This document shows, one piece after another, positions 9,053-34,263 of a stretch of DNA of 36,361 bases; the stretch's first letter is position 1; every line of letters begins with the position of its first letter. Position numbers and translations under genes: made by a program. Source of the DNA: Actinomycetota bacterium (GTDB lineage Bacteria > Actinomycetota > CADDZG01 > JAHWKV01 > JAOPZY01); the NCBI GenBank assembly GCA_025963875.1, contig JAOPZY010000027.1, forward strand, positions 1 through 36,361, given 5' to 3'. The notes below the pieces were generated by a model, which made no database searches, was not told where the DNA came from, and worked only from the letters and a program-made list of their open reading frames with translations.

Positions 9053-9751
9053 ATGGGACCCCTCTTCCTGGTCGTCGAGGGGATGGACGGGGCCGGCAAG
9101 TCGACCCAGATCGAACGCCTTGCCGGCTGGCTGACGCGGGCCGCCTCCCCACCGGTGGTGACCCGGGAGCCGGGGGCGACGGCGATCGGCGGGCGGATCC
9201 GGGAGATCCTGCTCGATCCCGCCAGCGCCGCCATGGACCCGAAGACCGAGGCCCTCCTCTACGCCGCGGACCGGGCGCAGCACGCCGCCGAGGTGATCCG
9301 GCCGGCCCTCGCCGCCGGACGGGTGGTCATCTCCGACCGCTACGTCGACTCGTCGCTCGCCTACCAGGGCCTCGCACGGGGGCTCGGCATCGAGCGCATC
9401 CTCGACCTCAGCATGTGGGCGACCGGCGATCTGCTCCCCGACCTCGTCATCCTCCTGGACGTCGCTCCCGAGCTGGCCCGTGGCCGCTCGGGCGCCACCG
9501 ACCGCATCGAGCTCGAGGGCCAGGCATTCCACCAGCGGGTGGCGGATGCCTACTGGGCGCTCGCCCGCACCTATCCCGACCGCTTCGCCGTCGTCGACGC
9601 CTCCGCGCCGCCCGATGCCATCGAGGGGGAGATCCGCCGCCTCGTCGAGGCCCGTCTCGAGGCCGGGCGGGAAGTCCGCAACGAAAACCGTGTCCACCAC
9701 GGAAAAGGTTGCGGACTTCCGACCGGGGCCGGCCCCCAGGCTCCCTCGTGA
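9053..9751 (+). CDS. tmk: Thymidylate kinase, C-terminus extended by a palindromic repeat
   Basis: The enzyme phosphorylates dTMP to dTDP. The P-loop is EGMDGAGKST (near residue 10-18), the DR(Y/X) motif is ISDRYVDSSLAYQG, and a LID-like segment precedes DRIELEGQAFHQRV. The family usually ends near residue 205-215. Here 232 residues are predicted because the reading frame runs through a palindromic element at 9670-9720, which adds a tail starting at about residue 206 (EVRNENRVHHGKG and on). The stop TGA (9749-9751) overlaps the holB GTG start, so translation is probably coupled. Confidence 0.95.
   Translation: MGPLFLVVEGMDGAGKSTQIERLAGWLTRAASPPVVTREPGATAIGGRIREILLDPASAAMDPKTEALLYAADRAQHAAEVIRPALAAGRVVISDRYVDSSLAYQGLARGLGIERILDLSMWATGDLLPDLVILLDVAPELARGRSGATDRIELEGQAFHQRVADAYWALARTYPDRFAVVDASAPPDAIEGEIRRLVEARLEAGREVRNENRVHHGKGCGLPTGAGPQAPS
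9670..9720. repeat. Nested palindromic element, copy 1 (inside tmk)
   Basis: The outer arms GAAGTCCGCAAC (9671-9682) and GTTGCGGACTTC (9708-9719) pair perfectly over 12 bp, and G9670/C9720 extends the stem to 13. The inner arms CCGTG (9688-9692) and CACGG (9698-9702) form a second stem with a 5-nt loop, and A-rich internal loops separate the two stems. A closely related element is at 25061-25104. Here the repeat lies in the coding frame of tmk. Confidence 0.9.
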
Positions 9752-22874: not shown

Positions 22875-23651
22875 ATGCTGCTCGCCGTCGACACCGGCAA
22901 CACCCAGACCCATATCGGCATCTTCCGCAGGGAGAGCCTGGTTGCGCAGTGGCGTACCTCCACCGAGCCAGGCCGGACGGCGGATGAGCTCGCCCTGATC
23001 TTCCAGCAGTTCCTCGCCCTCGTGGGCCTCTCGTTCTCCCGCGAGGTGACGGGGGTCGTGCTCGGCAGCGTCGTCCCGGCGCAGACCACCGCACTCCGGG
23101 AGATGGTGGCCAGGTACTTCCACTTCGAGCCGGTGGTTGTCGAGGCCGGCATCCGGACCGGGCTCCCCGTGAAGACGGATCACCCCAGGGAGGTCGGGGC
23201 GGACCGCATCGTCAACGCCGTCGCAGCCCTGGACCTCGTCGCCCCGCCGCTGATCGTCGTCGACTTCGGGACGGCCACCACGTTCGACGCCGTCGGGGAG
23301 CGCGGCGACTACCTCGGGGGCGCCATCGCCCCCGGCCTGGAGATCTCCGCCGACGCCCTCTTCCGCGTCGCCGCCCAGATCCAGAAGGTGGAGCTGGTCG
23401 TGCCGGACGACGTCATCGGGCGGTCCACGGTCGAGGCGGTCCGCTCGGGGGTCCTCCTCGGCGCCGCCGCCATGGTGGACGGGATGATCGAGCGGATGTC
23501 CAAGGCCCTCGGCGGCCACGTATCCGTGCTGGCCACCGGCGGGCTGGCGCCAACGGTCCTCCCGGCGTGCAACAGCACCATCCGCCACGAGCCCGAGCTC
23601 ACCCTCATGGGGCTCCGCCTCATCTACGAGCGCAATGCCGGCCCCGTCTGA
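22875..23651 (+). CDS. coaX: Type III pantothenate kinase
   Basis: CoaX catalyses the first step of CoA synthesis. The ASKHA phosphate motifs are visible: LLAVDTGNTQTHIGIF at the N-terminus, the Asp in PREVGADRIVNAVAA, and VVDFGTATTFDAV. GGAIAPGLEIS and LATGGLAP follow. It has 258 residues. A -10-like TACGAT ends 6 nt before the ATG, within the panD end, so a short-leader internal promoter is possible but not required. It overlaps lysS by 17 bp. Confidence 0.96.
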   Translation: MLLAVDTGNTQTHIGIFRRESLVAQWRTSTEPGRTADELALIFQQFLALVGLSFSREVTGVVLGSVVPAQTTALREMVARYFHFEPVVVEAGIRTGLPVKTDHPREVGADRIVNAVAALDLVAPPLIVVDFGTATTFDAVGERGDYLGGAIAPGLEISADALFRVAAQIQKVELVVPDDVIGRSTVEAVRSGVLLGAAAMVDGMIERMSKALGGHVSVLATGGLAPTVLPACNSTIRHEPELTLMGLRLIYERNAGPV

Positions 23652-25032
23652 CGGCGCGCCGCTGCGCTTCGACCGGACCTCGACGCCGGGGGAGCTGGTC
23701 GCCAAGCACGGGTCGCTGGAGCCCGGTGCCTCGACGGGCGAGATCCATCGCGTCGCCGGGCGGATCCAGACCACCCGCGGGCACGGCAAGGTCGCGTTCG
23801 CCGACCTCGGCGACTGGGGTGGCAAGATCCAGCTCTTCGCCCGGGCAGACCGGCTGGGGGACCGCTTCGAGGACTTCCTCGCCCTCGGAGTTGGTGACTG
23901 GGTGGGGGCCTCGGGCGAGGTGGTCACGACGCGCACCGGTGAGCTGTCGATCCTCCTCGACGGCTTCGAGCTCCTCGCCAAGTCCCGCCGGCCGTGGCCG
24001 GACAAGCGTTCCGGCCTCCAGGACGTCGAACGCCGGCATCGCCAGCGGTACCTCGACCTCGCCACGAACGCCCGGGCCCGCGAGGTGCTGATGGCCCGCT
24101 CGAAGACGGTGGCGGAGATCCGGCGCTGGCTCTCGGACCGCGGCTTCATCGAGGTCGAGACGCCGATGTTGCACCCCATCCCCGGCGGGGCGCTCGCCAA
24201 GCCCTTCGTTACGCACCACGAGACGCTCGGCGTCGACCTCTACCTGCGCATCGCCCCCGAGCTCTACCTGAAGCGGCTGCTGGTCGGAGGCATGGAACGG
24301 GTGTTCGAGCTCAACCGGAACTTCCGCAACGAGGGGGTCTCGACCCAGCACAACCCCGAGTTCACCATGCTCGAGGCCTACCAGGCCTACGGCGACTACA
24401 CCGACATGGCGGACCTGCTCGAGAGCCTGATCCGCGACGTCGCCCAGTCCGTCACGGGCGGGCTCGTCGTGCCCTGGCACGACATCGACATCGACCTCGG
24501 GACCTTCCGGCGGGTCCGGCTCGTCGACCTGGTGCGGGAAGCGGGAGCGGACCCCGACGCCGACCTGGCGGCCGAGTGCGAGCGCCTCGGCGTTGCTTTC
24601 GACCCGAAATGGCCCTGGGGCAAGCTCCTGGTCGAGATCTACGAGAAGAAGGTCGAGCACACCCTCGTCCAGCCGACGTTCGTCCTCGACTTCCCCCGTG
24701 ACGTCTCCCCGCTCGCCCGGACCCACCGCACGGATCCCCGCTTCACCGAACACCTCGAACTGATCATCGGCGGCATGGAGATCGCGCCCGCCTACTCCGA
24801 GCTCAACGACCCGGTCGAGCAACTCGCCAGGTTCCAGGCGCAGGCCGATGGCGCCGCCGGCCCGGAGGACGAGGCCCACCGGATCGACGAGGACTTCCTC
24901 ACCGCCCTGGAGTACGGGATGCCCCCGGCGGGGGGCCTGGGGCTCGGCATCGACCGCCTGGTGATGCTGCTGACGGATTCGCCGTCGATCCGGGACGTGA
25001 TCCTCTTCCCGGCCCTCCGTCCCGAGGACTGA
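23635..25032 (+). CDS. lysS: Lysyl-tRNA synthetase, class II
   Basis: This enzyme charges tRNA-Lys. An N-terminal OB-fold (RVAGRIQTTRGHGKVAFADLGDWGGKIQLF) is followed by the class II core. Motif 1 is around FIEVETPMLHPIPGGALAKPF, motif 2 is ERVFELNRNFRNEGVSTQHNPEFTMLE, and motif 3 is GLGLGIDRLVMLLT near the C-terminus. It has 465 residues. ATG 23635 lies inside coaX, which implies coupling. In mycobacteria lsr2 and clpC1 follow lysS; here a palindromic element and an ACT gene intervene. Confidence 0.97.
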   Translation: MPAPSDGAPLRFDRTSTPGELVAKHGSLEPGASTGEIHRVAGRIQTTRGHGKVAFADLGDWGGKIQLFARADRLGDRFEDFLALGVGDWVGASGEVVTTRTGELSILLDGFELLAKSRRPWPDKRSGLQDVERRHRQRYLDLATNARAREVLMARSKTVAEIRRWLSDRGFIEVETPMLHPIPGGALAKPFVTHHETLGVDLYLRIAPELYLKRLLVGGMERVFELNRNFRNEGVSTQHNPEFTMLEAYQAYGDYTDMADLLESLIRDVAQSVTGGLVVPWHDIDIDLGTFRRVRLVDLVREAGADPDADLAAECERLGVAFDPKWPWGKLLVEIYEKKVEHTLVQPTFVLDFPRDVSPLARTHRTDPRFTEHLELIIGGMEIAPAYSELNDPVEQLARFQAQADGAAGPEDEAHRIDEDFLTALEYGMPPAGGLGLGIDRLVMLLTDSPSIRDVILFPALRPED

Positions 25033-25060
25033 CCCCGCTCGGCACCTGAGCTAAGAAGAG

Positions 25061-25104
25061 GTCCGCAACCGAAAACCGTGTCCCACACGGATAACGTTGC
25101 GGAC
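25061..25104. repeat. Nested palindromic element, copy 2 (lysS/ACT intergenic)
   Basis: The outer arms GTCCGCAAC (25061-25069) and GTTGCGGAC (25096-25104) are perfect. The inner arms CCGTG (25076-25080) and CACGG (25086-25090) form a second stem. The spacer text GAAAACCGTGTCC is identical to copy 1 at 9670-9720. It lies between convergent genes, 28 bp after the lysS stop, so it could also act as a terminator there. Confidence 0.9.
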
Positions 25105-25132
25105 TTGTGCCTGGGGGCAGGCTCCAGGGCCC

Positions 25133-32721: not shown

Positions 32722-33630
32722 GTGAACCGTCCCGCTGGTACCGGAGCCCCTGCCCGGCACGATGAGGCGGAGCACCGGCAGGCTGCGAATCGGGCAATCG
32801 CCGTGTCGGCCGTTGGCCTGGCGCTCACGGGGGCCATCGAGCTCGTTCTCGCCCTCATCACCCACTCCGTCGGGTTGCTGGGCGACGCCCTGCACAACCT
32901 TTCGGACGTCTCCACCAGCGCGCTCGTCTTCCTCGGGTTCGCAGTATCCAAGAAGCCTCCCAGCGCCCGCTACCCCTACGGGTACGAGCGGGCCGAGGAC
33001 ATCGCCGGCCTGGGCGTTGCCCTCGTCATCTGGGCCAGCGCCCTCTTCGCCGGCGTGGAGAGCTACCGCAAACTCGTCGGTCACGGCCAGACAACGCACC
33101 TTGGGGTGGGAATGGTGGGAGCGGCGCTCGGGATCGTCGGGAACCAGGTGGTGGCCCGCTACAAGGCCCGAGTCGGGCGCCGGATCCAATCGGCCACGCT
33201 CCAAGCCGATGCCCGTCACTCCTGGCTCGATGCCCTGTCATCGCTGGGCGCCCTGATCGGTCTCGTGGTGGTCGCACTCGGCTACCGCATCGGTGACCCG
33301 ATCGCAGGCTTCGCGGTCACCCTGTTCATTCTCCACGTGGGATACGAGGTGACAACGGAGCTGGTCCATCACCTCATGGACGGCGTCGATCCAGAGACCC
33401 TCCACGTCGGGAAGGCGGCCGCCGAGGTCGTTCCTGGTGTGCTCGAGGCCGACCTTGCCGGGAGATGGACCGGCCGCACGCTGCGCCTCGACGTCGAAGC
33501 TCGCCTCGATCCGGGAGCAACCATGGCCGAGGCCGAGGCGGTGGGAAGGCAGGTGGAGACTGCGGTGCTCGATGCCGTGGAGGAAGCGAGGCAGGTTCGA
33601 TTCATTGCGCGGGCTGACGCACAGAGGTGA
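32722..33630 (+). CDS. CDF-family cation efflux protein
   Basis: This protein has 302 residues and starts at GTG 32722 with no Shine-Dalgarno sequence. Six helices are predicted. The metal-site motifs are GDALHNLSDV in helix 2 and DARHSWLDALSSLG in helix 5 (HxxxD). A cytoplasmic C-terminal domain follows (ELVHHLMDGVDPETLHVGKAAAEVVPGV to the end). The N-terminus has a few His residues (ARHDEAEHRQ). It belongs to a different CDF subgroup from the CzcD-like gene at 31344. Its divergent neighbour is the CzrA-like sensor, so Zn or Co control is likely. Confidence 0.92.
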   Translation: MNRPAGTGAPARHDEAEHRQAANRAIAVSAVGLALTGAIELVLALITHSVGLLGDALHNLSDVSTSALVFLGFAVSKKPPSARYPYGYERAEDIAGLGVALVIWASALFAGVESYRKLVGHGQTTHLGVGMVGAALGIVGNQVVARYKARVGRRIQSATLQADARHSWLDALSSLGALIGLVVVALGYRIGDPIAGFAVTLFILHVGYEVTTELVHHLMDGVDPETLHVGKAAAEVVPGVLEADLAGRWTGRTLRLDVEARLDPGATMAEAEAVGRQVETAVLDAVEEARQVRFIARADAQR

Positions 33631-34263
33631 AGTGGCTCAGAAGTCGCCGCTCGATCCCTCAAGTTAGCGTTTTGCGTGGAGGTGGAGTGCCTCGGCCACT
33701 TATGACAACAGACGTTAGTCCTCTTTCGCGCGTATCCGCGCGATTCCGGTCTAACCTCGGCCCGACCCGGGACTGGTTCTCTCTCAGGCGCGGAGAGCAC
33801 GAGTCGTGCGTACCGGCGCCGGCGCCGGTCGAACTGGCCGCGCCGCCGACGCCGTTGTTAGGCTCCACGGCCGACTGAGCCGATCCCACCATCGTCGCAA
33901 GAGTCACTCTAACCACGTCGGATTCGGGCGACTAAATCGTTGTCGGATTCGGCAACAGATTTCAGCCGGAATTCACATTTCTGTCGCGCAATGGCCACTA
34001 GGGCTCCCTACGCCTGGATCGGTCCTCCATCGTGAGCGTTTGGATACACGCGCCTGGCTACAGCTATGGAGGCAAACCGTCGTGGTCGACACCGGGCCCG
34101 ACCAGCACCGCTGCCCGATCCGGCGCGACGGGGCGCCGGGAAAGAATTCATCAGCCGTTCACAATCCCGTCAGCGTTCGGACACGCTCTCGTTTCGCCGC
34201 CTCTGTAGCGTTCGCGCCGGTGTCACCAAACTCGGTGCCGTGTGCTTCCGCGAAAGGGCGTGA
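33631..34263. other. Gene-poor stretch with palindromes
   Basis: About 630 bp show no convincing gene on either strand, and composition is less GC-rich than the rest. Visible signals are TCGCGCG/CGCGCGA around TATC (33726-33743), an 18-bp perfect palindrome (33812-33829), and AAGTGGC...GCCACTT arms (33630-33636 and 33695-33701). It marks the right border of the metal island. Confidence 0.55.
33812..33829. repeat. 18-bp perfect palindrome
   Basis: ACCGGCGCCGGCGCCGGT is its own reverse complement. It is low in complexity, so significance is uncertain. Confidence 0.7.

Follow-up and report, generated by a model that had tools for sequence, protein, structure and literature searches.

The 36,361-nucleotide stretch of Actinomycetota DNA analyzed here (the window) carries two nested palindromes about 15 kb apart, which raises the question of what kind of element they represent and what could have placed them there. 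A reading made from the sequence alone had located them at 9670-9720 and 25061-25104, had taken them for a structured family rather than chance, and had offered as candidates a REP/MITE-type element, an RNA processing or termination signal, and a protein-binding site. Both palindromes are present as it described, with arms longer than it gave. A third copy, which it missed, lies ~80 bp past the stop of a gene at 32803-33630 (Table 1).

Table 1. Palindrome copies and adjoining host genes in the window
Feature	Position	Strand	Description
Copy 1 (subfamily A)	9671..9719	+	outer arms GAAGTCCGCAAC/GTTGCGGACTTC, inner arms CCGTG/CACGG; A-rich internal loops
Copy 2 (subfamily A)	25058..25107	+	outer arms GAGGTCCGCAACC...GTTGCGGACTTG
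Copy 3	33711..33758	-	GAGGTTAGACCGGAATCGCGCGGATACGCGCGAAAGAGGACTAACGTC; model R3 match 33704-33765, E=3.8e-9
tmk reading frame (thymidylate kinase)	9053..9751	+	gene call; host gene, outside the element
Lysyl-tRNA-synthetase-like gene	23635..25032	+	gene call; upstream of copy 2; host gene, outside the element

Copy 1 is placed in frame within the 3′ end of the tmk reading frame, immediately ahead of holB, and supplies the last codons of that frame; the alignment with a sister genus (genome G001, 70% identity) stops before the element. Copy 2 is intergenic, with lysS (+) and an ACT-domain gene (-) as convergent neighbours; the name lysS is our reading of a gene that has homologs in 24 of 25 genomes. 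Neither at the tmk-holB junction nor downstream of lysS was an element found in G001, and the emptiness of both sites is consistent with lineage-specific insertion. RNA folding of copy 1 gave -36.7 kcal/mol, where shuffled sequences averaged -17.8 (z -6.9); for copy 2 the z against shuffles was -4.8, and strong hairpins formed on both strands. When the window was searched with the curated Rfam covariance models only a tRNA was detected, and the palindromes had no match. The short tmk frame is found in this genome and in G001, in contrast to most same-class relatives, where the open frame is ~680 aa long, probably through a domain fusion (L089-L096).

The genome of the window (G000) is a 3.84-Mb draft of 273 contigs, 94.6% complete, in which genes were called with a simple codon-usage script. 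Its best ClpC match was ClpC1, which by itself points to a probable place in Actinomycetota. The exact-arm pattern was found at 8 places in this genome and at 0 when read backwards, and it is lineage-restricted, with no occurrence in 60 relatives. Successive covariance models gave 54 (R1), 79 (R2) and at least 149 (R3) matches, and copies 1 and 2 were matched by all three. The R3 matches correspond to at least 106 distinct places, and to at least 127 once the places matched by R1 or R2 only are added; places are fewer than matches because palindromes often match on both strands. From these minimum counts the density is ~1 element per 30 kb. We confirmed, in this way, that the window palindromes are members of a dispersed family of ~49-bp elements with at least 106 copies in the genome; a structured family had been suggested by the sequence-only reading, which called for a covariance-model search for further copies. 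At several places (C139, C162, C16, C23, C18 and C214) a copy is only a few hundred bases or less from the end of its contig, suggesting assembly breaks at the repeats and a true copy number above the one counted. Viral contigs searched with the subfamily B pattern yielded no match, and the sole match in public genomes, in a Deltaproteobacterium MAG (L076), was judged to be due to chance, since its outer bases do not extend as arms.

Ninety-two copies were aligned from their ends inward. Positions 1-12 are paired, positions 13-16 lack consistent pairing, and positions 17-22 are again paired and enclose a short apical loop, so that an outer stem of 12 pairs is separated by a 4-base unpaired, A-rich internal loop from an inner stem of 6 pairs. 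Covariation among these copies was far above the shuffled expectation at positions 6, 7, 9, 11, 18 and 21. In alignment A5, both sides had changed in 13 of 16 pairs, and pairing was kept in 90.8% of the cells; shuffled alignments kept 74.7% and slid controls no more than 45.5%. Hence both stems are maintained by compensatory change. The ends are sharp throughout the family, GA(A/G)(G/C)T at one side and A(G/C)(C/T)TC at the other. Over 94 copies no conserved tag was detected outside this core, no flank position exceeding 0.3 bits; a GTAG-type unpaired tag at one end was not found in these 94 copies, nor was a CGTC tag at one end. The flanks, which were to be checked for target-site duplications, contained none that was convincing: flank matches were not clearly above shuffles, and the residual ones are accounted for by the shared flanks of one subfamily.

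Copies fall into subfamilies that we named A-D. Subfamily A includes copies 1 and 2 of the window, B has the form GAAGTCCGGAA-AAAAT-CGCGTG..., C, the most numerous, GAAGTTGGGAGC-GAAT-CGCGCG..., and D GAGGTGCGGAA-GAAAT-CCCGCG.... In A, B and D both sides of the internal loop are mostly A-rich on the same strand, unlike a plain dyad-symmetric duplex site or quasi-palindromes corrected by template switching; this is a tendency and no rule, since some copies of subfamily C are perfect palindromes. The constant palindrome of subfamily C has ragged flanks, which reach from about -95 to +120. Because of the nested imperfect hairpin we also considered integron attC sites, but on visual inspection the arms showed no core-site motifs and AAC/GTT was missing from subfamily B, so that this reading appeared unlikely. 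At one locus (L021, C127:311 and 554) a tandem duplication of ~243 bp bears two element copies, and at another (L032, C244) a separate palindrome, GCGTCAAAAAGTGGGCCTGGCACCCTTTTTGACGG, is located ~300 bp to the right of the first and apparently belongs to another dispersed repeat family.

The placement of the copies is far from uniform. Among 79 intergenic copies with callable neighbours, 38 lie between convergent, 37 between co-directional and 4 between divergent genes, and many of the co-directional copies are near the upstream stop codon. Among all the intergenic copies, a distance of only tens of bases to a stop codon is common. The background gene pairs of the same loci number 18, 130 and 34, respectively; by Fisher's test the convergent excess (p=3.5e-11) and the divergent deficit (p=0.004) are significant, in a contrast somewhat inflated by the omission of element-bearing pairs from the background. 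The copies show no bias in orientation with respect to transcription, 17 being sense and 20 antisense. Such placement at 3′ ends also fits terminators, and the copies could be bidirectional terminators or 3′-end RNA-stability elements duplicated genome-wide, their link to the nuclease genes described below being incidental. The abundance of copies between convergent genes and close to stops, the hairpins of both strands and a TTTT that follows the inner hairpin on one strand speak for this explanation, which we nevertheless hold to be improbable. Copies also occur upstream of nuclease genes and inside reading frames, there is no orientation preference despite the one-strand T-run, and unrelated genes share whole-element sequence families. 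Furthermore, copy 1 precedes holB, where a new promoter would have no room. The termination or RNA processing signal proposed from the letters alone fits less well for the same random orientation and for the position of copy 1 inside the tmk frame, although the elements may have a secondary terminator effect.

In one comparison of two loci (L040 on C151 with L029/L097 on C187), the regions to the left of the palindromes are related (67% over 202 bp), that of C187 lying within a Glyco_hydro_16 gene. Palindromes of differing subfamilies directly follow the C151 and C187 stops, which suggests a preferred landing spot.

A second component is a nuclease gene with 15-19 matches in this genome, whose products are ~305 aa long (gene starts were estimated from alignments). 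Pfam domains in 46 aligned members were MTES_1575 (41 of 46), AbiEi_4 (36 of 46) and DUF559 (32 of 46); in most members AbiEi_4 is N-terminal and the REase MTES_1575/DUF559 region C-terminal. The three closest intact proteins missed the Pfam cut-offs. MTES_1575 is a nuclease domain of the Vsr family (PMC3710099). The alignment profile matched 3hrl, an endonuclease-like protein, and 3r3p, a mobile intron protein (E=1.2e-5), and gave a weak match to Vsr (0.01-0.04). We take 3r3p to be the catalytic domain of I-Bth0305I. Residue D235 is invariant, and E247, H254 and D263 are nearly so. On this profile similarity and these conserved catalytic residues, the protein is related to the EDxHD/Vsr-type nucleases and is predicted to cleave DNA. 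The genes on C187, C95 and C230 are damaged.

The palindromes and this gene are found together. On C187 two inverted element copies bracket the damaged nuclease gene, and the genes on C187, C95, C226, C120 and C230 have a palindrome about 42-100 bp before the start, while that on C238 has one directly past the stop and a partial copy upstream. The gene-associated palindromes align with the solitary elements with almost no gaps, and subfamily B copies are 81-96% identical to the palindrome of the C95 gene. One intermediate carries a gene remnant: C220b is a solitary B copy to which a piece of the nuclease N-terminus is attached (detected by tblastn only), and it looks like an internal-deletion derivative. 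A profile search for nuclease remnants in the flanks of solitary copies returned only the C187 and C95 genes.

A survey of the phylum gave strong nuclease matches in 37 of 397 genomes. The same repeat, usually a hairpin, was present on both sides of the gene at 21 of 50 loci, of which at least two (L149 and L158) are tandem-repeat contexts, whereas none of 217 control genes was bracketed in this way (p=8.5e-18). Examples are G008 (98% over 61 bp), G004 (96% over 50 bp), G001 C35 (96% over 55 bp) and G264 (84% over 57 bp). An upstream palindrome score of at least 12 was reached at 15 of 50 nuclease loci and at 2 of 217 control genes; an earlier, smaller control, which the 217-gene control replaced, had shown enrichment upstream and not downstream. 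Fourteen of the 50 nuclease genes, some of them in this genome, have no palindrome by the criteria used. We conclude that the association between palindrome and nuclease gene is strong but not universal. Solitary relatives of the gene-flanking palindromes were found in G001 and G008, and in G001 four elements among those listed share the architecture and differ in their arms. Palindrome and protein similarity are correlated (Mantel r=0.23, p=4e-4), a signal that comes from close pairs only and is absent from the rank correlation. At two loci, L114 (G019) and L149 (G289), several palindromes or repeats stand in a row next to the nuclease gene.

No reading offered from the window alone had anticipated a link to an AbiEi-Vsr/EDxHD-type nuclease. 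In the open-licence papers searched we found no link of DUF559, AbiEi or Vsr proteins with palindromic elements; the pairing may have been described elsewhere. Homing-endonuclease-like nucleases are suspected behind hairpin repeats in organelle genomes, and a literature search for such a pairing of organelle hairpin repeats with a nuclease returned nothing.

It is conceivable that an unrelated transposase moves the palindromes, with the nuclease genes as passengers, or as parasites to which the palindromes offer landing sites. Palindromic repeats serve some insertion sequences as landing sites. ISPpu9, for example, is reported to land in REPs (PMC8450116). The search of this genome was for Y1 transposases only, so another enzyme could be missed in a draft of this completeness. 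We regard this explanation as unlikely, because the association recurs in many genera, with unrelated palindrome sequences and always with the same protein family, and because subfamily B matches the palindrome of one nuclease paralog. Nor did the genome, 94.6% complete, contain a match to the Y1 transposase domain (PF01797), for which control genomes were positive. The RAYT-type transposase that the sequence-only reading had wanted looked for was not found, in agreement with its remark that no transposase is nearby.

REP-like palindromes are common in bacterial genomes. One close comparison, REP/RAYT (REPtrons; PMC3733652, PMC8266576), shares with the present family short imperfect hairpins in high copy number, mostly downstream of or between convergent genes, repeats that flank the cognate enzyme gene, several families per genome and solitary, non-autonomous copies. 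It differs in that the enzyme here is an AbiEi-Vsr/EDxHD-type nuclease and not a Y1 HUH protein, and in that a ~49-bp nested two-stem element with a symmetric unpaired loop replaces the GTAG-tagged hairpin. The family would work like REP/RAYT, yet it is not a member, since neither the Y1 enzyme nor the GTAG tag was found. Of the REP/MITE-type identity first proposed, the dispersed, structured, mostly non-coding and 3′-end-enriched character holds, and the RAYT, the GTAG tag and the target duplication do not. REPs with a CGTC tag, including the Rickettsia palindromic elements, are likewise REP-like hairpins without RAYT, some of them within genes, and no dedicated enzyme is known for them (PMC3733652); the present family lacks that tag and has a nuclease gene bracketed by repeats. 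MITEs are also short, gene-less, dispersed and complementary at their ends, but here there is no target duplication or known transposase partner, and the internal architecture is conserved beyond the ends; ends matching the solitary elements occur around nuclease genes and not around a recognised transposase.

With the EDxHD homing endonucleases (I-Bth0305I) and the Vsr mismatch endonucleases the protein shares, by profile, a related catalytic domain and the conserved D, E, H and D; it differs in being encoded by a free-standing, palindrome-bracketed gene, with an AbiEi-type winged helix and with no intron or intein seen. The N-terminal AbiEi_4 domain is that of type IV toxin-antitoxin AbiEi antitoxins, but the C-terminus here is a nuclease and there is no AbiEii partner: no PF08843 match over the cut-off was detected in G000 or G001, the one weak match in G000 being on C173, a contig without these nuclease genes. 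An AbiE operon was rejected on this ground. Rhodococcus plasmids carry adjacent AbiEi-AbiEii pairs of different appearance.

AbiEi-type proteins bind inverted repeats in front of the operon that encodes them. The N-terminal AbiEi_4 domain, together with the palindrome that precedes several nuclease genes by about 42-95 bp, might therefore point to an autoregulatory operator, with the scattered copies as a regulon or decoys. This is the least likely of the alternatives. Solitary copies lie at 3′ ends and are scarce in the spaces between divergent genes, where promoters lie (4 of 79), and the palindrome upstream of the nuclease gene is found again downstream of it. In addition, the stem sequence varies while pairing is kept, which is not operator-like; a plain protein-binding site, as first suggested, also fits less well for this reason. 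Autoregulation alongside mobility is possible.

The explanation that we judge probable is a mobile system resembling REP/RAYT, made of palindrome-gene-palindrome units and solitary palindromes, in which a homing-endonuclease-like nuclease would replace the tyrosine transposase. The autonomous unit would be ~1.1 kb long and consist of a first palindrome, a leader of ~45 bp, a gene whose product has ~305 aa and a second palindrome that coincides with the stop codon or lies close to it. In the encoded protein an AbiEi-type winged helix would be joined to a nuclease of the Vsr/EDxHD/DUF559 type. The window palindromes would be solitary, non-autonomous copies. We infer an active protein with the palindrome as substrate, and copying that is nuclease-driven: the nuclease probably recognises and cuts its cognate palindrome, which could be extruded as a hairpin, with paired stems and unpaired A-rich loops, or be bound as a ~50-bp duplex by a nuclease dimer. 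The unpaired loops and the covariation favour the hairpin, whereas the nearly 60-bp target on which I-Bth0305I dimerises (PMC3943268) would suit the duplex. Repair of the break would then copy the palindrome, along with more or less of its flank, to new sites, and insertions would survive mainly downstream of genes, so that copies build up at 3′ ends. The ragged flanks of subfamily C would be better explained by break repair that co-copies stretches of variable length than by fixed-end transposition, although decay is also a possible source. Counting against a mobile system, no clean empty site or target duplication was found. The damaged gene copies, the 14 of 50 nuclease genes that lack a palindrome and a protein-palindrome correlation carried by close pairs only likewise speak against it.

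The balance tips slightly towards a wider proposal, namely that palindrome-bracketed AbiEi-Vsr/EDxHD nuclease genes, which disperse gene-less palindromes through nuclease-triggered repair, form an undescribed class of mobile elements present in many genera of the phylum. For REPs without a RAYT, the identity of the mover was left open by Di Nocera et al. 2013 (PMC3733652), and our data indicate a specific enzyme family for one such REP-like group. They also suggest a possible role for orphan AbiEi/DUF559-type proteins, and connect dispersed bacterial hairpins with nucleases of the homing-endonuclease kind. If the proposed explanation is true, the system would be a counterpart of REP/RAYT that uses no tyrosine transposase.
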